Shown piece after piece: positions 3,605-60,571 of a stretch of 64,000 nt of DNA. The notes beneath the pieces are model-generated. The model had not been told where the DNA came from. It did not search any database and worked only from the letters and a program-made list of their open reading frames with translations. Source of the stretch: an uncultured Schlesneria sp. (GTDB lineage: Bacteria; Planctomycetota; Planctomycetia; Planctomycetales; Planctomycetaceae); NCBI GenBank assembly GCA_903871875.1, contig CAIQIR010000010.1, forward strand, positions 1 through 64,000. The letters are read 5' to 3'. A program made the position numbers and the translations under genes. How positions within the stretch are numbered: position 1 is the first letter of the stretch; each line of letters starts with the position of its first letter.

Positions 3605-6600
3605 TTACGGCTTCACGACCGGATCTGAAGGGTTCATCTGGATGATCGCCGCGAGTGGGATCAATGCCCATTCGGGGCGTTGATTCAGGTCGTACTGAGC
3701 GTTACTGAGCGCGGCCTCGAGCAGAGACAAGTCCAGCAACTGCTGACGTGCGGCAGGCGATTTGGGTAAGAGGTTGGAGTGTTCCAGGGCGGCGGAATAG
3801 ACCAGAAAGAATTCCTGATAAAGCCGGGCCAGCCATGCTTCGGCATCTGACTTCAGTCGTTCGCGATCCTCGGGCCGGACGAAGACTGTCCGGGTGCCGA
3901 CTTTTTGCCCCAGCTCGAGCCGCATTGAGCCCACGGCATAGTCCAACGACGAAAGCAACGACGCGACGTCATACAGCGGCGAACGTTTCACACGCCGTTC
4001 CCCGATCGACTGGTCATTTCGACCTTCGAAGTTGGTCAAGATAAACTGGTGACCTGAAACAAGTATTTGTCCCAACCGATACTTGCCATGGCACCGGATG
4101 CGACTGCGTTCGGCCAGTTCGGGATCCAACGCCGGCAAAATTCTCTTCAGGATCGGCTTGTACAGAGCCTTGACTTGGCTTGCCAAGTCGCGAACGGCGT
4201 CGGGCCAAGCGGGATCGGGATCGGCAAGTCGCGCGTGTAGTCGACCGGCAGCATTTCTAAGAGTTTGATAGAAGGAACGCGGTTGCACGGGAACGGCGGC
4301 CAGCGACGACATTTTTGGTGCGGCGGCCAACAGCAAATGCAGTTCGGCGGTATAGGCAGCCAGCGACCGTGTTGTTTCGAGGAACGGACTGACGAGAAGT
4401 TCCCACTGTTCCTGATTGTCCGGAGCAGACCGATCCGCCGTGTCGGATGTCGTCGTATCTGATTCTGGTGACGCCGGAATGGATTGAGCCGCCATCGCCT
4501 CGAAAAATCGACTCGACTGGTCCAACATCATTTGCCATGCGTCGCCATGGTTTGGCACAAAATCGTGGATCGCACCCAGCGTGATCGAATCCAGCCCGTG
4601 GGCCCGATATTCGATCGTTCCCAGAATGCGCGCGAACCCTTCAAACTCGTTCTCTGCGAGGTATTTGCCGATTTCCACGTCCGGATTGACCCCTTCATCC
4701 GGGCGTCGAAAGACTCTTAAGACGAGGCGAGAATTCAGAGCCACCGTAGAAAGGGTTTTCGCTGTGGAAAATAATGTCGGTGCCGGACTGTCTTCGAGCG
4801 CCTCGGAAGATGTCGCAAAATCTTTCCAGGGAAGATAGACCAATTCCGCCGTGCTGGATCGAGCCGTCGGCTTTCCTTCCGCCAGCGCCAGAAGCGCCAG
4901 CGTATATTCGGGCAGGCCGATCGGATCGCACAAAAGCGCATTCATCGGCGGACCGGTTCGAGCCATCGCGATCGATTGAGGAAGGTTCTCAGTACTTGCA
5001 AACCGTTCTTCGGGAATGAGTGCCAACGGCTGAAACAACGTTTCAGAAGTTTCGTTGGAATACTCAAGGCGGCAGATCAAGAATCGGCCGTCCAACTGGC
5101 TGATCGGAAGCGGCCTGTGCTGGAGCAGTCGGCACCCTGCCGTTTGAGTGGGTGAATCGATCGAATGCCGTGCCGCCAAAATCGCCGACAGACGGTCCCA
5201 GGTTGGCCCGCGGAACAGATCAGACCAACCCCTGATGGCCAGCGTAGGCAATTCGGACGACGGCGCTGCTGAATTGGCCTGGGGCTCCAAGGCCAACCAG
5301 TAAAAATCATGTGGCCCGATCGTCAAGCCATACGGTTCCGATGGTCGAATCGCGGGAAACCGCGTTCGCCCAAACAATTCTTCAGGCGTCGAGCCCTCAT
5401 AGGCACTCAGATCCAAGCGGACGTTTTGGACGAAACGAGAAAGGTTCAGCACGATGAGCAGGCATTCCGTCTCCGTTTGTCTCACATAGGCCAACACCTT
5501 GGAATTGTCTGGTTCCAGCACCCGAAGTTCACCGCGGCCGAATGCGGGATGCTGTTTTCGCATGGCGATCAACCGCTTCGTTTTCCACAGCAGCGACGAC
5601 GAATTATTTTGCTGCGCTTCGACGTTGAGCGCTTCGTAGTGGTACTCCGATTCGGCAATCACAGGCAGATACAGTTTTTGAGAATTCGCTTTGCTGAAGC
5701 CGGCATTGCGATCGGCCGACCACTGCATCGGTGTCCGGACGCCGTTGCGATCGCCAAGATAGATATTGTCACCCATCCCAATTTCGTCGCCGTAGTAGAT
5801 GACAGGTGTACCAGGCAATGAAAAGAGGATCGCGTTCATCAGTTCGATTCGCTGACGATCATTTCGTAACAGCGGCGCCAGTCGATGACGGATTCCCAGA
5901 AACAATCGTGCCTGCCGGTCCCGCGCATAGGCCGTGTACATTGCGTCCCGTTCCTCGTCCGTGACCATGGCCAGCGTCAATTCATCATGATTACGAAGGA
6001 ACAGACACCACTGACAGTCGGCGGGAATGGCGGGCGTTTGCGCCAGGATATCGACGATGGGAAATCGATCCTCCTGATGCAGTGCCATGAACAAACGCGG
6101 CATCAAGGGAAAGTGAAATGCCATCTGGCATTCATCACCTGTTCCAAAATAGGCGACCATGTCGTCTGGCCAGGCGTTGGCTTCCGCCAGCAGCATGCGG
6201 CCGGGAAATTTCTGATCGATATGTCTGCGCAGATCTTTAAGAAAAGCATGCGTCTCGGGCAAGTGTTCGCAAGTCGTCCCCTCGCGTTCGATCAGGTAGG
6301 GCACTGCGTCAAGTCGCATGCCATCGACGCCCATTTCGAACCAGAAATCGACGACGGGCATCAATGCTTGCCGAACCGCCGGATTATCGAAATTCAAATC
6401 TGGCTGGTGGCTATAAAACCGGTGCCAATAGTATTGCTTGGCAATGGGATCCCAAGCCCAATTACTATTTTCGAAGTCCGGAAACATCAGCGGAACGTCG
6501 GAATACTTTTCGGGATCATCGCTCCAGACGTAAAAGTTGCGTTCGGTGCTTCCTGGTGGGGCTCGCCGAGCCCGTTGAAACCAGGGGTGCTGGTCCGACG

Positions 6601-6913
6601 TATGGTTGATGACCAGTTCGGTGATGACTCGAATACCAACCGAGTGAGCTTTATCGAGGAATTCACGAAAGTCATCCATGGTTCCATAGTTGGGATGGAC
6701 ACTCGTGTAATCGGCAATGTCGTAGCCGTCGTCTTTCAGCGGCGAACAGGTAAATGGCAACAACCAGACAGCCGTGATTCCCAGATCGGACAAGTAATCG
6801 AGCTTTTGCGTCAACCCGATAAAGTCACCAATGCCGTCCTGATTTCCATCGTAAAAGGCGCGCACGTGCAGTTCGTAAATGATCGCATCTTTAAACCACA
6901 GCGGATCGTCCAT
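3605..6913 (-). CDS. treS: Trehalose synthase fused to a degenerate maltokinase-like domain
   Basis: 1102 residues from the ATG at 6913, which overlaps the stop of the upstream gene as TGATG, arguing for translational coupling. Residues 1 to about 545 are a GH13 trehalose synthase, interconverting maltose and trehalose. The expected catalytic residues are present: Asp202 in GVDGMRLDAVPYL, Glu244 in LLAEANAW and Asp310 in FLRNHDEL. Residues from about 560 to the end match the maltokinase (Mak/Pep2) domain often fused to TreS, which phosphorylates maltose with ATP for the GlgE pathway. In this protein the kinase motif that normally reads HGDYHLGQ reads HGKYRLGQ (Lys944, Arg946), and the normal DFEG reads NFEG (Asn961). 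Those Asp residues are the catalytic base and metal ligand in the family, so kinase activity is doubtful. A longer in-frame start at 7051 would only add sequence overlapping the upstream gene. Confidence 0.92.
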   Translation of the reverse strand: MDDPLWFKDAIIYELHVRAFYDGNQDGIGDFIGLTQKLDYLSDLGITAVWLLPFTCSPLKDDGYDIADYTSVHPNYGTMDDFREFLDKAHSVGIRVITELVINHTSDQHPWFQRARRAPPGSTERNFYVWSDDPEKYSDVPLMFPDFENSNWAWDPIAKQYYWHRFYSHQPDLNFDNPAVRQALMPVVDFWFEMGVDGMRLDAVPYLIEREGTTCEHLPETHAFLKDLRRHIDQKFPGRMLLAEANAWPDDMVAYFGTGDECQMAFHFPLMPRLFMALHQEDRFPIVDILAQTPAIPADCQWCLFLRNHDELTLAMVTDEERDAMYTAYARDRQARLFLGIRHRLAPLLRNDRQRIELMNAILFSLPGTPVIYYGDEIGMGDNIYLGDRNGVRTPMQWSADRNAGFSKANSQKLYLPVIAESEYHYEALNVEAQQNNSSSLLWKTKRLIAMRKQHPAFGRGELRVLEPDNSKVLAYVRQTETECLLIVLNLSRFVQNVRLDLSAYEGSTPEELFGRTRFPAIRPSEPYGLTIGPHDFYWLALEPQANSAAPSSELPTLAIRGWSDLFRGPTWDRLSAILAARHSIDSPTQTAGCRLLQHRPLPISQLDGRFLICRLEYSNETSETLFQPLALIPEERFASTENLPQSIAMARTGPPMNALLCDPIGLPEYTLALLALAEGKPTARSSTAELVYLPWKDFATSSEALEDSPAPTLFSTAKTLSTVALNSRLVLRVFRRPDEGVNPDVEIGKYLAENEFEGFARILGTIEYRAHGLDSITLGAIHDFVPNHGDAWQMMLDQSSRFFEAMAAQSIPASPESDTTTSDTADRSAPDNQEQWELLVSPFLETTRSLAAYTAELHLLLAAAPKMSSLAAVPVQPRSFYQTLRNAAGRLHARLADPDPAWPDAVRDLASQVKALYKPILKRILPALDPELAERSRIRCHGKYRLGQILVSGHQFILTNFEGRNDQSIGERRVKRSPLYDVASLLSSLDYAVGSMRLELGQKVGTRTVFVRPEDRERLKSDAEAWLARLYQEFFLVYSAALEHSNLLPKSPAARQQLLDLSLLEAALSNAQYDLNQRPEWALIPLAAIIQMNPSDPVVKP

Positions 6914-9000
6914 CAGTTTTGCTCTTTCGAAACGGCGGAAAGCAGTGCAGACACTCGCAAGACTTCTGCCACACTCCAGGCCTGAGCCGCACATCCGCGA
7001 GGGGTATAGGGGGCTTCCGCATCGAAAATTTCCGAGATCGTACCGACACAAGCTTCGTTAAGGTGCGACTGGAAACCGACGATCGACTGACGACAGGTAT
7101 CGGACTGATCAGGGTAGACCCGTAACCACGCATCGACAAACGGGCCGATCAACCAGGCCCAGACCGTTCCCTGATGGTAGGCGGCATCGCGTGATCGAAG
7201 ATCGCCGTAGTACTGGGGCTTATAGTCGGGGTGTCCTGGTGCCAGCGAACGCAGTCCAAATGGCGTCAATAAGCGACGCTGCACCGTGTCGAGAACGGAT
7301 TTCCATCTCGCGGGAGCCAGGATCGGATGGGGCAGGGAAATCGCAAACACCTGGTTGGGGCGGCACGACGGATCATCGCCTTTTTCGCCATCGACGACGT
7401 CAAACAGGCCTTGCTCGGCCTCGCACCAGAATCGCTCGTTGAACGAGGTTTTCGCGAGATCCGCTGCCGCGTGGTATTCGCTTCCGTCCTCGCCCATTTC
7501 CCGCGTCCAACTTTCCATCAATCTCAGGGCGTTGTACCACAGCGCATTGATCTCGACCGCCTTTCCCCGGCGTGGGGTAACCACCCAGTCGCCCACCTTG
7601 GCGTCCATCCAGGTCAGTTGATATCCCTCTGCCCCCTGGCAGAGCAGTCCATCGCGTGGATCAACATGAATGCCGAAACGGGTGCCGCGTTGATGATGAG
7701 CGATAATGTCGGACAGGATTGGCAACCAGTTTCGCAACAGACTTCGATCTTTCGTGACCGTCATGTAACGGCTGAGGGCGTGGAAGTACCACAATGTCGC
7801 ATCGGCCGTATGATAGACCCCTTCGGTGGAACGATCAGGAAAGAAATTGGGAATCAGCCCGTCGCGGACATGACCGATAAACGTTCTCAAGATCGAGCGA
7901 GCTTCGGCATGTCGGCCCGTGACCAGGGTCAGTCCCTCGAGGCTGATCATGGAGTCACGGCCCCAATCCGTAAACCAGTGATAGCCGGCGATAATGGTCC
8001 GCGCTTCATCGCCCGATGCTTCCGCGCGAGCAAAGTCCTCGATCCGGCTCGCCGGCGAAATGATGAATTGATCTGCCGCCAGAACCAATTCTGCGGGAAG
8101 GCCCACTTGCGCCGAGGGTTCGGCGTTGTCAATTAGACGTTGACGACGTTCGATTTCGCTGGCATGTGCTTCGGCAGGCGACATGGCCTGAATTCGTTCC
8201 CAGACTTCCGTCGATGCGGTCAATGTGACATCGTTTCCCGCTGATAACACGGCTCGAAAGTACCCCGGACTCCACATTCGCCCGACATTTTCGTAACCCC
8301 GCGAAGCTTCTACGCGATAGACGACATCACGTAAGTGCATTTCTTGACTGGTGAACTCGGTCAGTGATCCCATGAGCATCAATCGCAACGGCGGGAACTG
8401 ATGATTGCCATCGACTAATTCGTAACGGCACGAGTCCCCTGTGAGGACGTAGTGATCGGGATTGGGCGAGGAAACAGGTTCGTCGTGTCCTCGAAAATGC
8501 ACGGACGGACGAAGCGTCACTTCGATCGGACCGTCGCCTTCCACTAATCGATAATTGACATGAACCGTGTTATGTTGATGAACCAGGAAAATCCGCTTTT
8601 CCACAAGATGGCCATCGACCCGGTACCGCCAGATCGGTAAGCCACACTCCACGATGAATTCTTCGAGTGATTCGAGTTCATTCAGTTCGATCGTTCGATG
8701 GGACTGCTCCATGAGGCTCGCCAGAAAATTCAACGAGCCTTGGCATTTGAACTGTTCATGCAGATGACTGAGCATCACCACCCGACCCAGCGGGGCAGGC
8801 TGCGCCGCGATGAGCAGTCCGTGATATCGTCGAGTGGCAGCGCCGGCAATCGTTCCCGAGGCGTATCCTCCTAACCCGTTGGTGACTAACCATTCTTTTT
8901 CGATTAATACGTTGGCGTCGTCATTTGGGGTCCGTCGCCGAAGAGCACTGCCCGACAACTCGGTCCTTGTCTGGCGTGGAGTCTCAGCTCGTTTTTCCAT
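6913..9000 (-). CDS. Amylo-alpha-1,6-glucosidase / glycogen debranching enzyme (archaeal/bacterial GDE type)
   Basis: 695 residues. The N-terminal half carries the GDE_N signature around EWLVTNGLGGYASGT and RRYHGLLIAA; the C-terminal half is an (alpha/alpha)6 glucosidase domain with AGYHWFTDWGRDSMI, IPNFFPDRSTEGVYHTAD, YQLTWMDAKVGDW and YHQGTVWAWLIGPF, typical of family GH133. It hydrolyses alpha-1,6 branch points of glycogen-like glucans and would feed linear maltodextrins to the neighbouring trehalose enzymes. I chose the ATG at 9000, preceded by GACGAGGCAAC; the frame extends upstream to a TTG at 9075. Middle gene of a treZ, debranching, treS run on the minus strand. Confidence 0.9.
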   Translation of the reverse strand: MEKRAETPRQTRTELSGSALRRRTPNDDANVLIEKEWLVTNGLGGYASGTIAGAATRRYHGLLIAAQPAPLGRVVMLSHLHEQFKCQGSLNFLASLMEQSHRTIELNELESLEEFIVECGLPIWRYRVDGHLVEKRIFLVHQHNTVHVNYRLVEGDGPIEVTLRPSVHFRGHDEPVSSPNPDHYVLTGDSCRYELVDGNHQFPPLRLMLMGSLTEFTSQEMHLRDVVYRVEASRGYENVGRMWSPGYFRAVLSAGNDVTLTASTEVWERIQAMSPAEAHASEIERRQRLIDNAEPSAQVGLPAELVLAADQFIISPASRIEDFARAEASGDEARTIIAGYHWFTDWGRDSMISLEGLTLVTGRHAEARSILRTFIGHVRDGLIPNFFPDRSTEGVYHTADATLWYFHALSRYMTVTKDRSLLRNWLPILSDIIAHHQRGTRFGIHVDPRDGLLCQGAEGYQLTWMDAKVGDWVVTPRRGKAVEINALWYNALRLMESWTREMGEDGSEYHAAADLAKTSFNERFWCEAEQGLFDVVDGEKGDDPSCRPNQVFAISLPHPILAPARWKSVLDTVQRRLLTPFGLRSLAPGHPDYKPQYYGDLRSRDAAYHQGTVWAWLIGPFVDAWLRVYPDQSDTCRQSIVGFQSHLNEACVGTISEIFDAEAPYTPRGCAAQAWSVAEVLRVSALLSAVSKEQN

Positions 9001-9124: not shown

Positions 9125-10984
9125 TCATTTTTCTCCTTGAAGTACGATCGCGCTGTCTGCCGTCAAATGCCAACCATCTGCTTCCCCTTCTGGATGACGG
9201 ACACCGTTGCCGCCGTATCGGTGGTCTTCCGTCGATAACAGCATCTTCCACCGATGGTCCTGCGGAGGGGCGAGTAATGGCTCCGGGACGATCGAAAGTT
9301 CCAGATCGGGACCCAGATTAACGATCAGCAGCCGGTCTTCGTCGTGAGCGAAAAAATAGCGTAGCAGAAAGGCATTGGGGCCGATGACGGCGCCGTCGAC
9401 ATCGCGATTTGATACGGGCTGAAACCCTGGCTTGGATCGCCTCAGTAACAGTAAATCCTTGGTGAGTTGATAGGCGGCGGCGTGTGTCTGCCGTTCGTCA
9501 AAATTCAGTTTACAACGTTCGAAAGTCTGTGGATCGTCAGGCACCGCAAATTGCGAGATGATTTCTGGATCGTTCAGACTGGGAAACTGTGTCAGAAACT
9601 TGGTCCGTCCAGCTTTCACCATCGCGGCCAGTTCGGGCGGGTGATCGGCGAAGTACAAGAACGGGCTGGAAGCCGAAAATTCCTGTCCTTGAAACAACAG
9701 GGGAGTTCCGGGCAGTAAGAGCGTCAGTGCCGTCATGGCTCGATAGCGCGCCGGACTGGATTGCTGATGAGCCCTCAGTCCCTGCCCGGAATTGGCGATC
9801 TGGTCATGGTTCTGAATGAAGTTGATGAAGGCCTGCTGCGGCAGATCGAGGCCCGGTTTACCGCGCCGATGATCCTGCCACGAATACCACTGCCCCTGAT
9901 AGAGGTAGCCATATTTGGCGGCGGAAATAAATTCCTGTGGCTGGCCCAGGTAGTCGGCGAAGTAAGCCTCACGACATCCGTTCAGAGCGACCATTGCGGA
10001 ATGGTGATAATCATCATTCCACAGCGCATCCAAGCCATTCCCGCCACTCGAAATCGCACGACACAGCTGCGGATGCTGCGGTTCGTTTTCGGCAATGAGA
10101 ATGACGGTTCGATTTGGCGCGGCGGCACGAGCCGTTTCGGTAATTTGCGTCAGAATGTGGTGCTTGGCGGGCGCGCTATCATAGATATTCTGGGTGGCGT
10201 CCAATCGCAGACCATCCAGATGAAAGTCCTGAATCCAATACGCCACGTTCGAGAGAAAAAATTCGCGGACCGATTCCGAACGCTCGCCATCAAAATTGAT
10301 GGCCGCACCCCAATCGGTTTGATAGCGATCGGTGAAATAGTGGCTCGCAAATTGCGCCAGATAGTTTCCATCGGGGCCTAAGTGGTTGTAGACGACATCC
10401 AAAATGACCGCGATCCCGTGGGAATGAGCGCAATCCACAAACTGGCAGAGATCGTCGGGGGTGCCGTACAACCGAGTCGGAGCAAACAGATTCACTCCGT
10501 CATAGCCCCATCCAAACGTTCCGGCGAAGTCGGCAATCGGCATCATCTCGACGCAGGTGATGCCGATTGCGGCGAGTTCCTTCAGTTCTTTGGCTGCTGA
10601 CGCCCAGGTGCCCTCGGTGGTGAAACTGCCGACGTGCAATTCGTAGATCACCAGTTTTGAGAGTTCCAGACCGTGCCAGTCCCCGTCGGTCCAGGCGTAC
10701 GCTTTGGGATCCATCACTTGCGACGGTCCATGAGGGCCTTCCGGCTGATATCGGGATGCGGGATCCGGCACCAGGACGTCCTGATCCAGGCGAAACTGGT
10801 AGCGCGTTCCAACGGTGATGGAGCTGATCAAACCCGAAAAGTATCCCTGCCCTTCATTTGTCAGCTTGTGATTTTGTTCCCCACTCAAAACGACACTGAC
10901 TTCGCGGCAATTTGGTGCCCAGACACGGAAGTGTACGCCGTTGTTTTGTCGTTCCGCGCCAATCGGGTATGTCCGCTGAACCAT
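9125..10984 (-). CDS. treZ: Malto-oligosyltrehalose trehalohydrolase
   Basis: 619 residues. An N-terminal beta-sandwich (CBM48-like, VHFRVWAPNCREVSVVL) is followed by a GH13 barrel with the region signatures LVIYELHVGSFT, VILDVVYNHLGPDG, LDGLRLDATQNI (nucleophile Asp), VILIAENEPQ (acid/base Glu) and FIQNHDQIANS (transition-state Asp). The enzyme releases trehalose from maltooligosyltrehalose, the product of TreY. All catalytic residues look intact. The ATG at 10984, with GGAG in front, matches the usual N-terminus better than an in-frame TTG at 11062. First gene of the minus-strand glucan operon, divergent from the GlgX-TreY chimera, which is the only TreY-like gene here and is probably inactive. 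Confidence 0.93.
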   Translation of the reverse strand: MVQRTYPIGAERQNNGVHFRVWAPNCREVSVVLSGEQNHKLTNEGQGYFSGLISSITVGTRYQFRLDQDVLVPDPASRYQPEGPHGPSQVMDPKAYAWTDGDWHGLELSKLVIYELHVGSFTTEGTWASAAKELKELAAIGITCVEMMPIADFAGTFGWGYDGVNLFAPTRLYGTPDDLCQFVDCAHSHGIAVILDVVYNHLGPDGNYLAQFASHYFTDRYQTDWGAAINFDGERSESVREFFLSNVAYWIQDFHLDGLRLDATQNIYDSAPAKHHILTQITETARAAAPNRTVILIAENEPQHPQLCRAISSGGNGLDALWNDDYHHSAMVALNGCREAYFADYLGQPQEFISAAKYGYLYQGQWYSWQDHRRGKPGLDLPQQAFINFIQNHDQIANSGQGLRAHQQSSPARYRAMTALTLLLPGTPLLFQGQEFSASSPFLYFADHPPELAAMVKAGRTKFLTQFPSLNDPEIISQFAVPDDPQTFERCKLNFDERQTHAAAYQLTKDLLLLRRSKPGFQPVSNRDVDGAVIGPNAFLLRYFFAHDEDRLLIVNLGPDLELSIVPEPLLAPPQDHRWKMLLSTEDHRYGGNGVRHPEGEADGWHLTADSAIVLQGEK

Positions 10985-11359
10985 TTGCCACTCCAAGAGT
11001 TCACTTCGCCCGAGTTGTCGGATCAGCAATTCGCATTCCTCGGGTCGGCGGCTGAAAAACAATTTGTGGGAAGACCGTCATTGCAGGCGTTCTTCCCAAT
11101 CCAGCCCTGATTTACGGTTTTTCGGTGTGGATTCGGTCGCTGCGATTCGGAAACCGAAACCACGCTGCCTGTTTGGCGCTCAGCTATTGGTCGGGTGGTA
11201 GCCAATTTGCCAAAGTGAATGCCGAACGGAGCCGGTTCCGTCCGTGCCGCGCGGTTATTTGGTCACAAAGAGGCTTATGGAACGGTATTTGCCTTTGACG
11301 CTCTTCTTAAGAAATGAACTCTGACGATCCAAACTCTGACGATCCAACAAGGAATGACG
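10985..11359. promoter_or_regulatory. Divergent promoter region between treZ and the chimera
   Basis: No gene. It must drive treZ leftwards and the glgX-treY chimera rightwards. Near the right end there is a perfect 10-base palindrome TTCTTAAGAA (11304-11313) directly followed by two tandem copies of a 15-base unit, then AAGGA six bases before the ATG at 11360. This could be an operator region; no known factor is inferred. Confidence 0.4.
11317..11346 (+). repeat. Tandem repeat, two perfect copies of 15 bases
   Basis: AACTCTGACGATCCA occurs at 11317-11331 and again at 11332-11346 without a gap, immediately upstream of the ribosome binding site of the chimera gene. It could be a small slippage duplication or a paired binding site. 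Confidence 0.8.
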
Positions 11360-13678
11360 ATGCGTATCTGGCCCGGTCTTCCCTATCCGCTTGGTGCCAC
11401 GTGGGATGGAAGTGGCGTTAACTTTGCGATTTTTTGCGAGAATGGAACCGGCGTGGAATTGTGCCTGTTTGATTCACCAGACGCCGAGCACGAGAGTCAG
11501 AAGATCGCATTTACTGAGACCACCGACCAAGTCTGGCATGCCTATTTTCCCGATCTTTTGCCCGGACAAGTCTATGGCTACCGCATTGACGGTCCGTACG
11601 ATCCACAGAACGGACATCGCTTCAACCGCCATAAGATTGTTCTGGATCCCTACGCAAAGCTACTCGCACGGAACGTCAAATGGGATGACAGCCTGTTTGG
11701 ATATCAGCTAGGCCAGGATGACTTGAGTTTCAATGAGGTGGACAGCGCCCCGTTCGCTCCCTTGGCGACGGTCGTTGACGGAGCATTCACCTGGGGTGAC
11801 GATCGTCCTCCCCAAACCCCCTGGCATAAGACCCTCATTTATGAAGCCCACGTCAAAGGGATGACGATGAAGCATCCCGATGTGCCGGAAGGACTGAGGG
11901 GCCCCCCCTTATATGTCGTCGTGGAAAAAATATTGGGACCGCGCGAATCACCGCCGGCCGACTGGGCCTGTCATGGAACGACGGGTTACGAATTCATCAA
12001 CGAGGTCAACGGGCTATTCGTCGACCCGAATTTGGCGGATCAACTGACCTCGGTCTATCAACGATTTACACGACAAACGGATGACTTTGATCAGATTGCG
12101 TACCGGAACAAATTGCAGATTCTGCAAACGACGATGGCCAGTGAACTGCACGTCCTGGCTCACCAATTGGACCGACTGGCTCAAATGGAGTGGTGGTCAC
12201 GCGATTTTACGCTGAATGGACTCCGGCAAGCTCTCGAAGAAATGATCGCCTGTTTTCCCGTCTATCGAACCTATGTGTCGCACGAAGCAAACCAAACTGA
12301 TCGAATCACGGTGCTTCGCGCTGCACGCCGTGCCCGTGCGAGTAGCCCGTTGCTGGGCCGAGAGATCTTCGAATTCATCTGCGACTCGCTGCTACTGCGC
12401 GAACCCAGCTACTCTTCCGTTTTACCGGAATACCATGATTGCCAGCGTCAGTTTGCTCAAAAGTTCCAACAGCTGACATCGCCGGTGATGGCCAAAGGCG
12501 TCGAAGACACGACGTTCTACCAATTCAACCGTCTGGTCTCGCTGAACGAGGTGGGTGGAAACCCGGCCAGAATGGGCAGCACTCCCCAGGAGTTGCATGA
12601 TTTCCTGCTGGCGAGAGCCGCATCTGGTTCCGGTGGCCTGTCGCCGCTTTCGACTCACGATACCAAGCGAAACGAAGATGTCCGCGCGAGAATCAATGTC
12701 CTGTCAGAAATACCAGAAGAGTGGGAACGGCGACTTCACCGCTGGCGCGGTCTGAACAGATCGTTCAAAGTCGAGGTCGAAGAAGGAACACTGGCACCGG
12801 ATGACAACGAGGAATATCTGATTTACCAGACATTGGTGGGCGTCTGGCCGACTTCGTCATCGATTGACGCCGATTTTGTGTCTCGCATTCGCGACTATGT
12901 GAAAAAGAGCCTCCATGAAGCGAAGGTTCATTCCAGCTGGATTCATCCCGAAACGAAATACGACGACGCCGCTTCGGCGTTTGTCGAGTCGATTCTGAAT
13001 GCCGAACGGTCTGCCGAATTTTTGGCCGACATGAACGAGTTTCTCAAAATCGTGCACCGGCCCGGACAACTCAATTCACTCGCGCAAACGTTGATTCGCT
13101 GCACGGCTCCCGGAGTTCCCGATACTTACCAAGGTTGCGAAACATGGGACGATAGTCTGGTGGATCCCGATAATCGCCGACCGGTCGACTATCCCGCGCG
13201 AGAGCGAATCTTAAGCCGATTGGATCAACTCGAATCCCCTCCCGGTAGGGAGCGTGCCGATGTTTTGCGCCGGGAAATGAAGCCGGAATTCGCCAAGCTG
13301 TTTGTCACGGCCACGGCCCTTCGGCTGCGTCGCCGACTGTTGACGCTCTTCCAAAAAGGCCAATACGTGCCGCTGGACGTGCGGGGGACTGACGCAGATC
13401 ATCTGTTTGCTTTTGCCATGACCGACAACCGCGATGCGGTCATCGTCGCGGTTCCCTATCGATCTGCCGGTTTACAATGGGATCCAGAAGGCATCGGTCC
13501 GCAGCTCGATTTCGATGCGGAACTCGGGCTGCCGGCAGCCTGGACCGAGACCGCTTGGAGAAACGAATTCACTGGGACAGAACTGGTGGGTAAACGCCTC
13601 AACGTAAAATCCATGCTCGCCGATTTCCCTGTCGCCCTGTTCCAGGCGACCGACGGACTACCCACTCTTGATGCTTGA
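11360..13678 (+). CDS. Chimera: GlgX/TreX N-terminal part fused in frame to TreY C-terminal part
   Basis: 772 residues from the ATG at 11360 (AAGGA six bases upstream; another ATG lies at 11354). Residues 1 to about 181 are clearly the start of a GlgX/TreX debranching enzyme: RIWPGLPYPLGATWDGSG, the CBM48 domain, RFNRHKIVLDPYAK and the first barrel strand LIYEAHVKGMTMKHPDVP. At LRG|PP (DNA 11897-11908, inside a GGGGCCCCCCC run) it switches to TreY: YVVVEKILGPRE, HGTTGYEFINEVNG, MAKGVEDTTFY, STHDTKRNEDVRARI, PGVPDTYQGCE, to a normal TreY end. Retained TreY sequence includes the probable acid/base Glu189 and the STHD Asp434, but the TreY segment with regions I and II, including the nucleophile Asp, is absent, as is the GlgX catalytic barrel. 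The likely origin is a deletion joining adjacent glgX and treY genes. The frame is intact, with no stops. Either activity is unlikely; an assembly join must also be considered. Confidence 0.88.
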   Translation: MRIWPGLPYPLGATWDGSGVNFAIFCENGTGVELCLFDSPDAEHESQKIAFTETTDQVWHAYFPDLLPGQVYGYRIDGPYDPQNGHRFNRHKIVLDPYAKLLARNVKWDDSLFGYQLGQDDLSFNEVDSAPFAPLATVVDGAFTWGDDRPPQTPWHKTLIYEAHVKGMTMKHPDVPEGLRGPPLYVVVEKILGPRESPPADWACHGTTGYEFINEVNGLFVDPNLADQLTSVYQRFTRQTDDFDQIAYRNKLQILQTTMASELHVLAHQLDRLAQMEWWSRDFTLNGLRQALEEMIACFPVYRTYVSHEANQTDRITVLRAARRARASSPLLGREIFEFICDSLLLREPSYSSVLPEYHDCQRQFAQKFQQLTSPVMAKGVEDTTFYQFNRLVSLNEVGGNPARMGSTPQELHDFLLARAASGSGGLSPLSTHDTKRNEDVRARINVLSEIPEEWERRLHRWRGLNRSFKVEVEEGTLAPDDNEEYLIYQTLVGVWPTSSSIDADFVSRIRDYVKKSLHEAKVHSSWIHPETKYDDAASAFVESILNAERSAEFLADMNEFLKIVHRPGQLNSLAQTLIRCTAPGVPDTYQGCETWDDSLVDPDNRRPVDYPARERILSRLDQLESPPGRERADVLRREMKPEFAKLFVTATALRLRRRLLTLFQKGQYVPLDVRGTDADHLFAFAMTDNRDAVIVAVPYRSAGLQWDPEGIGPQLDFDAELGLPAAWTETAWRNEFTGTELVGKRLNVKSMLADFPVALFQATDGLPTLDA

Positions 13679-14205
13679 ACGGATCGTTGGCATCGCCAAT
13701 GGCCGAGCGCCCTTCAATTGCTGCGCGGTTACCGACGTCAGGCCGATCGCTTACCGGGCCAATGCTTTCTGACAGTGCTGCAGGTGAAGGAAGTTGTCTT
13801 GGCCCCGGCGCGCACGAAGTGTTTCGACTGTGAACCTTGTGCAACGAGAGGATGGTCAATCACTTGCTGCTGCGGCCATTGCCGTCCGCTTTGACTGCCG
13901 CTGGACACGGATCAATAATTAGCCATGAAATGTCTTAGTTTTTCTGAATCGGTCTACGGACTCTGGTCGAAGGTATGGTATTCTGCGAAGGTAAACCGGT
14001 TTTCCGTGACGGGGATCGGCGTGCGACAGGTGTCCCCGCCGGCTTTGCCGTCGGTTGTTTTTGAGAGTTACGTGGCATTCCTGGTGGTACAACAGCTTAA
14101 ATTTGTCTCAGACAATTCCGTTGATGATTGCGGATCCGTCAATTTCCGTGGCGCAGTCAGCTGGCTCTTGTTGCGTTGAAGGTGTTCGTAGTCGGGAAGT
14201 CGAAC
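13679..14205. other. Intergenic region after the chimera
   Basis: No recognisable gene. A small inverted repeat TTGGC-ATC-GCCAA follows the chimera stop by about ten bases but lacks a T-tract. Reading frames entering the next gene begin here but have no ribosome binding site until 14206. Confidence 0.4.
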
Positions 14206-15180
14206 ATGCTGCTTTCCCAGAGAAATCCGTCGGTCAGCTGGGAGCCTGTTGCGGTTGATCCGTCTGGTCGGGGTGTCGCGTGGGTCTGGTTTCGTCCGGC
14301 CGCCGTTCCGACCGGGGTGATGTTCGTGATCCCCGCAGCCCTGTTTGCGGATGCGAACGTCGTGGCGGGACTTTCCTTGCGACGATTGGTCGCCTGTGCG
14401 GGCCTTGATCCGGCGCACATCGTCTGCTGGACGATCAATGGGATGAATTTCGACGCTGCCGGCGGAACGTCGGTGCTGCTGGACCAGGTTCTGCCGTCGC
14501 CTCCGCTCGGGGCAAATCTGGACGTCTCGGTCTGGATGGCGGTCATGTCGCAGCCAGCCTGGCCGGTCGCTCCTCCCGGTGCGGTGCCCTATGCGACCCC
14601 CGCGGCGGGATATCCGGCTTATGGTGCGCCCCCCATTTCGGCTGAAGATCAATTGCTGCTGGAAGCGATCGAATCGAACTGGAAAGACGTGATCGCACTG
14701 GAAGTGCGGGTCGCGTCACTGCGAAAGGATATTGGTTCGGTCACCAGTCGGCTCAGTACGCTCAACCGTGATTTGAGTTCCCACGAGCGTCTCGTTTGCA
14801 CGACGAAAGAAACGGGCGAATGGGCCGATTGCCGACGAGCCTTGCGCGATGCGATAACCTTGATGGCGCGGTCGGTGAAAGAAATCGATCTGGGAACGAC
14901 TAGTGGAGCGGGACGACGGCATCAATTCGAGGAAATCCACCGCAACCATGTTGTCTTACGAAAACCCTTTCCAGGCATCAAACAGGCTGTCAACGAGTTC
15001 GAAACTTATCGCAAGATTCTGCATAGCGTGATCGGAGCGGCCCAAGCGAGTCTTTCTCGTGGTGGCCGTGACGCCGAAATGCGCGCCAGCTCGTTTCTGC
15101 AACGGATCCACGCGAAGGCGATGTCCAAACGGAAGGTCGGAAAATTCTTGTTTTCCAAGTCCTTCCCGCCTCCCGAATAA
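14206..15180 (+). CDS. Unrecognised protein with Pro/Ala linker and predicted coiled coil
   Basis: 324 residues from an ATG preceded by GGGAAG. I do not recognise a named family. Residues 1 to about 110 form a compact domain rich in Val and aromatic residues (SWEPVAVDPSGRGVAWVWF). Residues about 115-145 are a low-complexity Pro/Ala/Tyr/Gly linker (PVAPPGAVPYATPAAGYPAYG). The rest, from about 150, is strongly helical and charged with heptad-like spacing (ALEVRVASLRKDIGSVTSRL), so a coiled coil is likely, ending in a basic tail. No signal peptide or transmembrane segment is evident. A good ribosome binding site and an uninterrupted frame argue that it is real. Similar architectures occur in planctomycetes as uncharacterised proteins, but that is recollection, not shown by the sequence. 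Confidence 0.7.
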   Translation: MLLSQRNPSVSWEPVAVDPSGRGVAWVWFRPAAVPTGVMFVIPAALFADANVVAGLSLRRLVACAGLDPAHIVCWTINGMNFDAAGGTSVLLDQVLPSPPLGANLDVSVWMAVMSQPAWPVAPPGAVPYATPAAGYPAYGAPPISAEDQLLLEAIESNWKDVIALEVRVASLRKDIGSVTSRLSTLNRDLSSHERLVCTTKETGEWADCRRALRDAITLMARSVKEIDLGTTSGAGRRHQFEEIHRNHVVLRKPFPGIKQAVNEFETYRKILHSVIGAAQASLSRGGRDAEMRASSFLQRIHAKAMSKRKVGKFLFSKSFPPPE

Positions 15181-15891
15181 CCCGCTCGCGACGACTGGCT
15201 CGCACCGGTCAGTTTCACAGGATCGTCGTGGAGAATCGTCAGGACGGGGCTTGTGGTGGATCGCCGTTTTCAACCCTTTTCCAACGGGGTTGATCTGATG
15301 GGCAGGGCTCTTTTCTTGCCACAGGGTCGATGAACGACCAATGCTACGGCAATTGCCGGGTGTTTCTGTGGGGAAAGCCGGATTTCGGCCGTGGACCCGT
15401 CCGGCAGGATTGTGGCGAGCGTCGGCGTGATCGAGTTGGGCGACAGGGAAAGGAAATCCCCTGGCTTCGTCACGGACGTTTTCAAAAAAACTCCACGAAA
15501 TGGTGAAAGGTCCGTGCCGCGGGTTGCGTATCACCATCAGTGAAAACGCAGGGCTGTTGAAAACAGATTGGAGGTTCCCATGTCGATGGAATTGATGGAA
15601 AGGCCGCCGCCATCAACGGGCCGCCTGCGCGGAACGGGGCCGCGACTCGCCGCCTCGTTCCGCAAGCCCCGAAACTGTGTCGACGTACTGGCGAACTGCT
15701 TGGTCCATATTCGGTGGACCCCGTCACTGGGACCGATGGAGATCCTGCGCTGGTTAACTTAGGTAACTTCCGACAACCGAACTCCATCAATGACAATCGA
15801 TTGCAGTCGCTGACTGGCCGCTGGGACTTGGTCCTCCAATGATTCGGATGACACGGCGTGCGCCGGTGAATTCACCTGGTCCAACTGATCG
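15181..15891. other. Gene-poor region with an intergenic hairpin
   Basis: No supported gene. The region holds an inverted repeat GCGGAACG (15629-15636) / CGTTCCGC (15656-15663) with a 19-base loop. Several short antisense frames exist but have neither start signals nor protein-like composition. Confidence 0.4.
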
Positions 15892-16167
15892 CTAAGTTTC
15901 CTGAGTGGAATAAAACCGGTCCGCGAAGGTCGTGCCGACATCCGCCGTCGACCGCATCTGGCCAGGATCAGGGCGGATTATTGAGAGTAAGTAACCAAAA
16001 AAGGGCCTGCGGATCAGCATTCCACGAATTGGCATGAACGCTGCATCGACCAACGGTTGCCGAACGGCCATTCCAAAGATCACCAAGACGATCAATGTCG
16101 TGACGGAGATCACCACGATGGGAACCAGACAACTCGGAACTTCGGACATACAGGTTCGGTCGTCCAT
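15892..16167 (-). CDS. Candidate small membrane protein (91 residues)
   Basis: The frame from an ATG at 16167 encodes a hydrophobic stretch near residues 12-34 (SCLVPIVVISVTTLIVLVIF) that would span a membrane, followed by a basic segment and a second mildly hydrophobic patch (FFGYLLSII). Such composition is unlikely by chance in the shadow of another gene, and no other gene occupies this stretch. Against it: no good ribosome binding site before the ATG and no family match that I recognise. A shorter start at MAVRQPLVDAAFM is possible but would lose the membrane segment. Confidence 0.35.
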   Translation of the reverse strand: MDDRTCMSEVPSCLVPIVVISVTTLIVLVIFGMAVRQPLVDAAFMPIRGMLIRRPFFGYLLSIIRPDPGQMRSTADVGTTFADRFYSTQET

Positions 16168-58467: not shown

Positions 58468-59270
58468 TGTCTCGCAAACCACGACTGGCGGTCTTTAAAT
58501 TTGCATCGTGCGACGGCTGTCAATTGTCGTTGCTCGATGCCGAAGATGAACTGTTGGCTATTTGTGATCGAGTCGACATTGCGCACTTCGCTGAGGCCAG
58601 CAGCGATCTGCAACCCGGCCCCTATGACGTAGCACTGATTGAAGGGTCCATCACCACCGCCGAGGATGCTGCGCGCATCCGTCGAGTGCGACTCGATTCG
58701 AAATTCCTGATCACAATTGGCGCCTGTGCGACTGCGGGCGGAATTCAGGCATTGCGGAATTGGGCCAATGTCGATGACTGGGTTGACTCGATCTATCCCA
58801 GCCCCGAATTCATCAGCACACTCTCGACGTCGACTCCGATCGCCCAGCACGTTCACGTCGATTTTGCGCTGCACGGCTGTCCGATCAACTATCACCAGTT
58901 AGTCGATGTACTCGTTGCGTTGGCTGAGGGACGCCAGCCTCGCATCCCCAGTCACAGCGTCTGCCTCGATTGCAAGCATCGTGGAACTGTTTGTCATGTT
59001 GTGGCCCGCGGTGTTCCGTGTTTGGGGCCCGTTACTCAATCGGGGTGTGGCGCACTCTGCCCGGCCTACGACCGAGGTTGTTACGGTTGCTTCGGTCCGA
59101 GCGTCCCCGCTAATACGAGCTCACTGCTGAATAAATTTCGCATGCTGGGCCAGTCCCCGGACCAATTGGTTCCATTACTACGGAACTTCAACGCGGCGGC
59201 TCCAGAATTTCAACGGGCAGCTGATCAGTTGACTATTCTGAGATCGAATGATGAGGGGACACCTTCGTGA
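58467..59270 (+). CDS. hydD: [NiFe] hydrogenase small (delta) subunit
   Basis: 267 residues, no twin-arginine signal, so cytoplasmic. Proximal [4Fe-4S] ligands in KFASCDGCQLSLLDAEDEL, then GACATAGGIQALRN and LHGCPINYHQLVDVL. A second set of cysteines follows between about residues 165 and 215 (SVCLDCKHRGTVCHV, GVPCLGPVTQSGCGALCPAYDRGCYGCFGP), as in group 3 small subunits. Passes electrons from the Ni-Fe centre to the beta/gamma module. TGATG overlap with the gene before, GTGA overlap with the large subunit after. Confidence 0.94.
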   Translation: MSRKPRLAVFKFASCDGCQLSLLDAEDELLAICDRVDIAHFAEASSDLQPGPYDVALIEGSITTAEDAARIRRVRLDSKFLITIGACATAGGIQALRNWANVDDWVDSIYPSPEFISTLSTSTPIAQHVHVDFALHGCPINYHQLVDVLVALAEGRQPRIPSHSVCLDCKHRGTVCHVVARGVPCLGPVTQSGCGALCPAYDRGCYGCFGPSVPANTSSLLNKFRMLGQSPDQLVPLLRNFNAAAPEFQRAADQLTILRSNDEGTPS

Positions 59271-60571
59271 GTTCTTCCGAGATCATTCAGGTTCCGATTC
59301 TGACACGCGTCGAAGGTGAAGGAGGGGTCACGATTCGTCTGGGCGAAGGGGGCATTGAGAGCGTGACGCTTAACATCTTTGAGCCACCGCGGCTGTTTGA
59401 AGCACTGCTTCGAGGGCGTCCCCTGGAAGAGACCCCTGATATCACGGCCCGCATTTGTGGCATCTGTCCCGTTGCTTACCAAATGAGTTCCGTACATGCT
59501 CTCGAAGCCGCGTTGGGAGTTCAGATCACACCGACCATTCGGCGACTACGACGCTTGTTGTACTGTGGCGAATGGATCGAGAGCCATGCATTGCATCTGC
59601 ACTTATTGCACGCTCCCGATTTTTTCGGTGCGTCCAGCGGCATTGAGCTTGCGCAGCGCTTTCCGGCCGAGGTCAAACGCGGATTACAGCTGAAGAAGTT
59701 CGGAAATCGACTGCTGGAAGTCCTGGGCGGTCGAGCCATTCACCCCGTCAACGTCAAAGTCGGCGGATTTCATCGGTTGCCCAACCGGCATGACATGGCG
59801 GCGTTGATCCCGCATTTCGAAGCGGGGGTCCTTGCAGCCGTGGAAGCGACCCGCTGGGTCGCCGCTTTTCCGTTTCCTGATTTCGAATACGCCTACGATT
59901 TTGTGTCGCTCAGTCATCCAGATGAGTACCCAATGAACGAGGGTGACATCGTCTCCAGTACCGGACTGCGTATTCCAGTCACCGAATACAATCAACATTT
60001 CGTCGAAGAGCAAGTCGCTCATTCGACCGCGTTGCATGCCGTTCGTCGCCACCGGGGGACACCCTACCTACTTGGGCCGTTGGCCCGAGTGAATCTGAAT
60101 CGCGACCGTCTGATGCCGCTGGCACGGCGACTGGCGGATGAAGTAGGCCTTTCTGCGAATTGTTGCAACCCGTTCAAAAGTATTATCGCTCGAGGTCTTG
60201 AACTGGTCCATGCGTATGAAGAGTCGCTGGCGATTCTTCGCGACTACGACGCTTCTGGCCCAGCATCTATCCGATACCGGGCGAGAGACGGAGCTGGTTG
60301 TGCAGCAACCGAAGCACCGCGTGGTCTGCTGTTTCACGAATATCGCGTCGACTCTCAGGGCCAGATTGTTTCGGGACGGATTGTTCCCCCGACTTCGCAG
60401 AATCAGAAGCAGATCGAACGGGATTTGCTCGATTATCTAACTCGCCGCCTGCAAGCGGCAGCATCCCGAAGCGAAATGGCTGTCGACTGTGAAAGATTAG
60501 TGCGGTCCTACGATCCTTGCATCAGTTGCTCGACGCATTTTCTGAAAGTCCGTTGGGAGGAGCGATCGTGA
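59267..60571 (+). CDS. hydA: [NiFe] hydrogenase large (alpha) subunit
   Basis: 434 residues from a GTG start that overlaps the small-subunit stop (GTGA). It carries the Ni-Fe(CN)2CO site for reversible H2 oxidation. L1 motif: ARICGICPVAYQ with Cys64 and Cys67. L2 motif: DPCISCSTH with Cys418 and Cys421. The sequence after His424 is a ten-residue tail, FLKVRWEERS, which the maturation protease encoded next would remove after nickel insertion. Other conserved parts: TRVEGEGG, WIESHALHLHLLHAPDFFG, GGRAIHPVNVKVGGFHRLP. The group 3b-like gene order beta, gamma, small, large supports a bidirectional NAD(P)-linked enzyme. Confidence 0.95.
   Translation: MSSSEIIQVPILTRVEGEGGVTIRLGEGGIESVTLNIFEPPRLFEALLRGRPLEETPDITARICGICPVAYQMSSVHALEAALGVQITPTIRRLRRLLYCGEWIESHALHLHLLHAPDFFGASSGIELAQRFPAEVKRGLQLKKFGNRLLEVLGGRAIHPVNVKVGGFHRLPNRHDMAALIPHFEAGVLAAVEATRWVAAFPFPDFEYAYDFVSLSHPDEYPMNEGDIVSSTGLRIPVTEYNQHFVEEQVAHSTALHAVRRHRGTPYLLGPLARVNLNRDRLMPLARRLADEVGLSANCCNPFKSIIARGLELVHAYEESLAILRDYDASGPASIRYRARDGAGCAATEAPRGLLFHEYRVDSQGQIVSGRIVPPTSQNQKQIERDLLDYLTRRLQAAASRSEMAVDCERLVRSYDPCISCSTHFLKVRWEERS

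Follow-up and report, generated by a model that had tools for sequence, protein, structure and literature searches.

Gene content of the locus

The window, as we call the whole 64-kb stretch of DNA analysed here, encodes a 774-aa chimera in a single open frame, next to three genes of trehalose and glycogen metabolism (Table 1). Its second ATG, at 11360 (MRIWPGLPYPLGATWDG), corresponds to the residue at which GlgX begins in G007, a genome of the same genus, and was taken as the conserved start of the chimera; the earlier note on this DNA had started the protein at the same position. A promoter and terminator scan added nothing.

Table 1. Features of the chimera locus and other frames mentioned in the text, with coordinates in the window.
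Feature	Coordinates	Strand	Evidence
TreS-maltokinase fusion gene; same block in G007	3605-6979	-	TIGR02456 above cut-off, TIGR02457 below its cut-off
GDE-type debranching gene (GDE_N/GDE_C); same block in G007	6913-9000	-	Pfam and NCBIfam matches
treZ, full length, divergent from the chimera	9125-10984 (ORF 9125-11062, matched start 10984)	-	TIGR02402 above cut-off
Perfect 15-base tandem duplication (AACTCTGACGATCCA, twice), just upstream of the chimera start	11317-11346
Chimeric ORF	11354-13678	+	Single open frame
GlgX/TreX-derived part: CBM48 and first barrel residues (LIYEAHVKGMTMKHPDVPEGLRG)	11360-11902	+	TIGR02100 positions 2-179 of 688; CBM_48
Join GGGGCCCCCCC; breakpoint placed no finer than the C run	11898-11908	+	Sequence; comparison with G007
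TreY-derived part: starts shortly ahead of the region III Glu and includes the C-terminus	11903-13678	+	TIGR02401 positions 285-836 of 838
ORF of 452 codons	24318-25676		No Pfam match at 1e-5
NiFe-hydrogenase large-subunit-like protein	59267-60571		Pfam NiFeSe_Hases, two stretches

Residues 8-183 of the chimera aligned with positions 2-179 of the GlgX model TIGR02100 (NCBIfam; whole-protein E 2.2e-66) and residues 185-763 with the TreY model TIGR02401 (E 5e-167), confirming the switch from GlgX to TreY that had been described near residue 181. The match does not extend over the full-length TreY model (285-836 of 838 only), yet its 557.6 bits exceed the curated cut-off of 498.65. None of the 11 NCBIfam families listed spans the whole chimera. 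The N-terminal CBM48 module is present (Pfam CBM_48, residues 12-101, 5.4e-16). The GlgX-derived part showed 84% identity to G007 GlgX over 177 aa, and the TreY-derived part 59% identity to residues 419-997 of G007 TreY, the counterpart of G007 TreY 1-418 being absent. Among the neighbouring products, identity to those of G007 was 70.5% for TreZ (617 columns) and 65.7% for the TreS-maltokinase fusion.

The codons at the join read CTG AGG GGC / CCC CCC TTA TAT, translated as LRG / PPLY. In the GlgX relatives printed, LRG is followed by SY or TY, and the TreY relatives printed have PGLY, QPAY, PPLY, CPLY, EPLY or PWLY at the same point, indicating that each side resembles its parent right up to the join. 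The run at the join had been noted before, although at 11899-11908, whereas GGGGCCCCCCC starts at 11898. It occurs once in the window, where 0.02 copies are expected; seven-C runs as such are not unusual there, with four matches against 7.1 expected. Slippage in this C7 tract could shift the frame and thus act as a phase-variable switch. The run does lie within the frame, and the other two frames carry 17 and 16 stops downstream, but the window shows no excess of C7 runs and there is no known active product to be switched, and we consider such a switch scarcely credible.

Catalytic regions lost and kept

GH13 enzymes carry the nucleophile after strand 4, the acid/base after strand 5 and the stabiliser after strand 7, according to PMC11046441. 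No paper giving the catalytic residues of TreY by number was found among those listed, and the roles that we assign to its regions rest on this general GH13 passage. Solved TreY structures are 1IV8, 3HJE, 5ZCR and 6LCU.

We looked in the chimera for nine motif strings, namely those of G007 GlgX and TreY and that of the join, and found only TreY region III (VVEKIL, at 189), TreY region IV (STHDTKR, at 433) and the join (LRGPP, at 181). The four GlgX regions DVVYNH, GFRFD, IAEPW and VTCHDG, located at 270, 342, 380 and 450 in G007, are all missing. The four catalytic regions of G007 TreY lie at 110, 355, 424 and 668, and the string of nucleophile region II, GLRVDH, is also missing from the chimera, which retains the TreY acid/base Glu (beta-5) and stabiliser Asp (beta-7). 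The putative counterpart of the TreY nucleophile Asp, D334 of the intact TreY L122, is invariant in 22 of 22 aligned sequences. Taken with the GH13 strand order, the loss of region II indicates that the chimera is devoid of the strands that lead up to the nucleophile in TreY.

The chimera is therefore comparable to the GlgX/TreX glycogen debranching enzyme (GH13; TIGR02100) over residues 1-181, with the CBM48 module and the beginning of the barrel, but it stops at position 179 of 688 and lacks all four catalytic regions. Likewise, it is comparable to the maltooligosyltrehalose synthase TreY (GH13; TIGR02401) from the region III Glu onwards, as far as the C-terminus, and differs in lacking the earlier part, including region I and nucleophile region II. 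Hence the earlier note was correct that the TreY part begins just before the region III Glu and is devoid of the region II nucleophile; its title, according to which both catalytic segments are lost, holds for GlgX and for TreY regions I and II, but not for TreY regions III and IV.

An intact glgX-treY pair at the same place in relatives

A comparison with close relatives, proposed in the earlier note, revealed separate genes at the same place. G007 contains the same block with an intact glgX (732 aa) followed by an intact treY (1008 aa), the two overlapping by 4 bp such that the treY ATG overlaps the glgX stop. Relative to G007, the net loss between matching points is 2,906 bp, which supports the proposed deletion between adjacent glgX and treY genes. 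The treY of G007 is offset by two bases from the frame of glgX (10588 - 8393 = 2195, remainder 2 on division by three); 2,906 leaves the same remainder, and the fused frame is consequently open.

Two other genomes, G240 and G274, also contain glgX and then treY, beside TreZ and GDE. In the clusters of the three genomes, the TreS-maltokinase, GDE and TreZ genes lie on one strand facing glgX-treY. The chimera locus resembles them at the start of glgX and at the end of treY, differing from the G007 cluster in the lack of the 2,906 bp across the glgX-treY boundary. By eye, the shared cluster appears to stop immediately downstream of treY (window 13700-16000 against L033 13600-20000); G007 continues with two acyltransferase-like genes (also by eye), and the window with a different-looking ORF at 14128-15180.

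We then compared the phylogenies of the parts. In IQ-TREE analyses, the window was sister to G007 with a support of 100 for the TreY part (10 sequences), TreZ (9) and GDE (5), and it was placed beside G007 with a support of 85 for the GlgX part (8 sequences). This shared sister indicates that a single inherited cluster was cut, and on this ground we rejected that two foreign genes were brought together. In deletion-derived chimeric pseudogenes, a single internal deletion connects the 5' portion of one gene with the 3' portion of its neighbour. The chimera differs from these in that its frame is still open and decay is not visible yet.

Occurrence of the fusion in other genomes

The fusion was searched for with three queries in overlapping sets of genomes. 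The whole chimera identified it only in its own genome among 59 genomes (own included). With a 400-aa query across the join, for which up to four candidates were scored per genome, there was no other fusion among the matches listed for 397 genomes of the class (own included). A 67-aa query across the join was covered from 1 to 67 only in the own genome (E up to 1e-12) among 170 genomes of the family (own included). Some TreY matches aligned over the join, for example in G010 (119-700 of 774) and G403 (47-399 of 400). The four that extended furthest over it (G010, G022, G323 and G403) have an ordinary TreY N-part upstream, and for the matches with lesser overhangs the long open frame was the sole criterion. 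The titles and opening lines of abstracts of the papers listed on the subject announce no glgX-treY chimera.

We also examined 116 loci with a TreY C-part, and tblastn found a TreY N-part directly upstream in 113. The remaining three were the window itself, L123, whose match begins 32 bases from the contig end, and L155, in which the N-part is readable by eye. The 116 loci consist of 36 plus 80 others, the latter being 80 of the 545 loci confirmed in a contig scan, a set that may leave out the own genome or near ones; some of the 116 repeat one gene, such as L096 and L093, with 230 of 230 sampled 60-mers of L096 present in L093. The earlier note had considered that the N-terminal 180 residues might be normal for some TreY subfamily, the frame then being an ordinary TreY with a GlgX-like N-terminus. 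All 114 other judgeable loci (113 by tblastn and L155 by eye) have a TreY N-part, as do G010, G022, G323 and G403, which refutes such a subfamily within the genomes searched and leaves it a negligible probability.

A frame of 760 codons in G313 was rejected as a second short TreY, given that its treY is split over two frames. At this locus (L090, 7033-10004), in a two-contig genome, the split treY lies beside a glgX match and reflects a frameshift or a sequencing error.

Predicted fold

A structure prediction, another of the checks proposed, was run with AlphaFold2 on an alignment of 58 rows (the window plus 32 of 74 TreY C-parts and 25 of 30 GlgX N-parts), and yielded a model with a mean pLDDT of 73.0 and a pTM of 0.63. 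The CBM48 module and much of the rear TreY part were confident, whereas residues 146-259 fell below pLDDT 50, leaving the join disordered. The model does not contain a complete (beta/alpha)8 barrel, with no strand of at least 3 residues between 79 and 670. The model of the intact TreY L122, from a shallower alignment of 22 rows, reached a mean pLDDT of 88.7 and a pTM of 0.88, with strands assigned to the barrel at 3-8, 32-36, 80-85, 330-334, 382-386, 623-625 and 781-784. Since the chimera alignment is made of fragments, part of the low model confidence may stem from the alignment. Foldseek searches with the chimera model returned MTSases at the top (TM-score by query up to 0.41), followed by GlgX/TreX (0.15-0.19).

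Constraint on the two halves

We counted changes at sites conserved in all other sequences of each set, which for the TreY part were the other nine. In the TreY part, the window had changed at 3 of 148 such sites, compared with 13 of 158 in G007 and 5 of 150 in G240. The corresponding values for the GlgX part were 0 of 82, 2 of 84 and 3 of 85, and for TreZ 9 of 222, 3 of 216 and 7 of 220. The statement that the frame is open, here over 774 codons, and that both halves look well conserved agrees with these counts.

Eight outgroups per gene were offered for relative-rate tests, of which 8 passed the filter for the TreY part, 7 for TreZ, 6 for the GlgX part, 3 for GDE and 2 for TreS-maltokinase. 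In the TreY part, the window showed fewer changes than G007 with seven of the eight outgroups, and 45 versus 44 with the eighth. None of the tests with six outgroups was significant for the GlgX part. For TreZ, one of seven tests reached p = 0.03, the window having changed more, and this slight excess might hint at an early relaxation of the window TreZ. The terminal branches of the TreY part (IQ-TREE) were 0.314 for the window, 0.608 for G007, 0.459 for G240 and 0.351 for G274, in a tree whose more densely sampled members have shorter terminal branches; those of the GlgX part were 0.141 for the window and 0.096 for G007. The ratio of third to first and second codon-position changes, computed from the window and G007 alone, was 2.34 in the TreY part versus 2.61-2.70 in TreZ, GDE and TreS-maltokinase. 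This slightly lower ratio, the TreZ excess and the longer GlgX branch run against our reading of the locus as a recent deletion. In the site counts, rate tests and branch lengths, the TreY part showed no acceleration, and the relaxed constraint expected of a pseudogene was not apparent.

Fourfold sites differed between the window and G007 by 0.63-0.71 over five genes, which is near saturation. As a rough estimate, if the window branch carries some 0.7 neutral changes per site or more, 148 unconstrained codons would gain about 200 or more amino-acid changes; three were seen, with a 95% upper bound of 7.75. On this approximate basis, constraint on the TreY part would have been absent over a few per cent of the window branch at most. 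So few changes imply that the deletion is very young, or that it is absent from the cell, or that the protein is still constrained. The earlier note had allowed for a recent event, a retained new function or an assembly join, and the rates are in better agreement with the first and the last than with a new function retained for long.

The second of these possibilities is a CBM48-TreY-C protein kept by selection, which would bind glycogen or maltooligosaccharides or regulate TreZ or TreS. The frame is open over all its codons, the region III Glu and the region IV Asp are present, and the TreY part is less changed than the intact sister gene (3 of 148 against 13 of 158). However, the conserved sites are old TreY sites, including active-site residues that a protein lacking the nucleophile would not require, and so fit inherited conservation. 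Besides, the fusion was in no other genome searched (among the matches listed, for the 397 genomes of the class), and the join region and the barrel are unfolded in the model. We hence regard a retained protein as very unlikely, and its more specific form, a newly formed single-copy hybrid with a non-catalytic binding or regulatory role in the trehalose-glycogen cluster, caught near birth, as a highly improbable conjecture. Selection for a new function may be at work but need not be invoked to account for the locus.

Search of the own genome and the quality of the join

The own genome, G000, is a draft assembly of 178 contigs, which we searched for intact copies, as had been advised, with the whole G007 GlgX and TreY. 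The search identified two further full-length glgX genes (60 and 61% identity to the whole G007 GlgX), and otherwise only the chimera locus and weak matches to other GH13 genes; neither an ortholog of the missing GlgX C-part nor the TreY N-part was found in the draft. There was no match to OtsA in the own genome. TreZ scored above the cut-off in 5 of 15 genomes of the genus, and the same five contain a TreY match, which in the remaining four of them lies in frames of 1016-1131 codons. At the thresholds used, the other ten genomes contain neither TreZ nor TreY. This occurrence of both in exactly the same five genomes suggests that the route is gained or lost as a unit.

These data bear on whether the join is an assembly artefact, in which case glgX and treY would both be whole in the cell, and 2.9 kb would have been dropped by the assembler or during gap closing, with the flanks joined across the G/C run. 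The draft state of the assembly, the undecayed TreY part, the location of the join in an 11-base G4C7 run of low expectation and the co-occurrence of TreZ and TreY are all consistent with this, and so is the lack of an OtsA match, in that a cell that keeps TreZ might keep TreY as well (of the other trehalose routes, the search covered OtsA). Conversely, a search of the other contigs did not recover the lost halves, the reading frame continues across the join, and the longest exact word shared between 11501-11909 and the two other glgX loci has 13 bases. Such a word is too short for the usual k-mer join with other glgX genes, and a repeat-driven misjoin with these copies was rejected on this ground. 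A weak check of ten other long proteins of the window showed no obviously cut Pfam family, although one was unmatched and one matched a model in pieces only. Overall, we consider an artefact a tangible possibility, albeit a rather unlikely one.

Interpretation and consequences

We believe that the chimera is probably the product of a recent deletion of about 2.9 kb that disabled both genes and cut the TreY-TreZ route. The deletion would have occurred in the overlapping glgX-treY pair (2,906 bp relative to the G007 layout), so that glgX lost its final three quarters and treY its initial two fifths, with the frame left open by chance. The lack of decay and the in-frame join, which has a chance of one in three, count against this explanation, as they fit an artefact or a retained protein as well; the somewhat longer GlgX branch of the window also counts against it. 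A deletion would have to be so recent that decay is not visible in either half, and we infer that the cell itself, and not the assembly alone, carries it. In general terms, the chimera seems to result from a gene loss that happened very recently or from a fault in the assembly, and not to be a new kind of protein.

The predicted product would combine a glycogen-type CBM48 domain with the second half of TreY. Since it lacks the GH13 nucleophile and a full barrel, we expect it to be inactive both in glycogen debranching and in the synthesis of maltooligosyltrehalose, and thus the 774-aa hybrid very probably does the job of neither enzyme. The two further glgX genes and the GDE gene probably still provide for glycogen debranching, whereas the TreY-TreZ trehalose route would be cut and TreZ left without its usual substrate.

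Because the hybrid scores above the NCBI cut-off for TreY, an automatic pipeline could annotate it as a functional maltooligosyltrehalose synthase. If the join arose during assembly, it cautions that a misjoin may escape notice when it keeps the frame. In neither case does the locus add a new mechanism; if the deletion is real, it would be a clean and very young case of a pathway cut by one event, with TreZ still full length.
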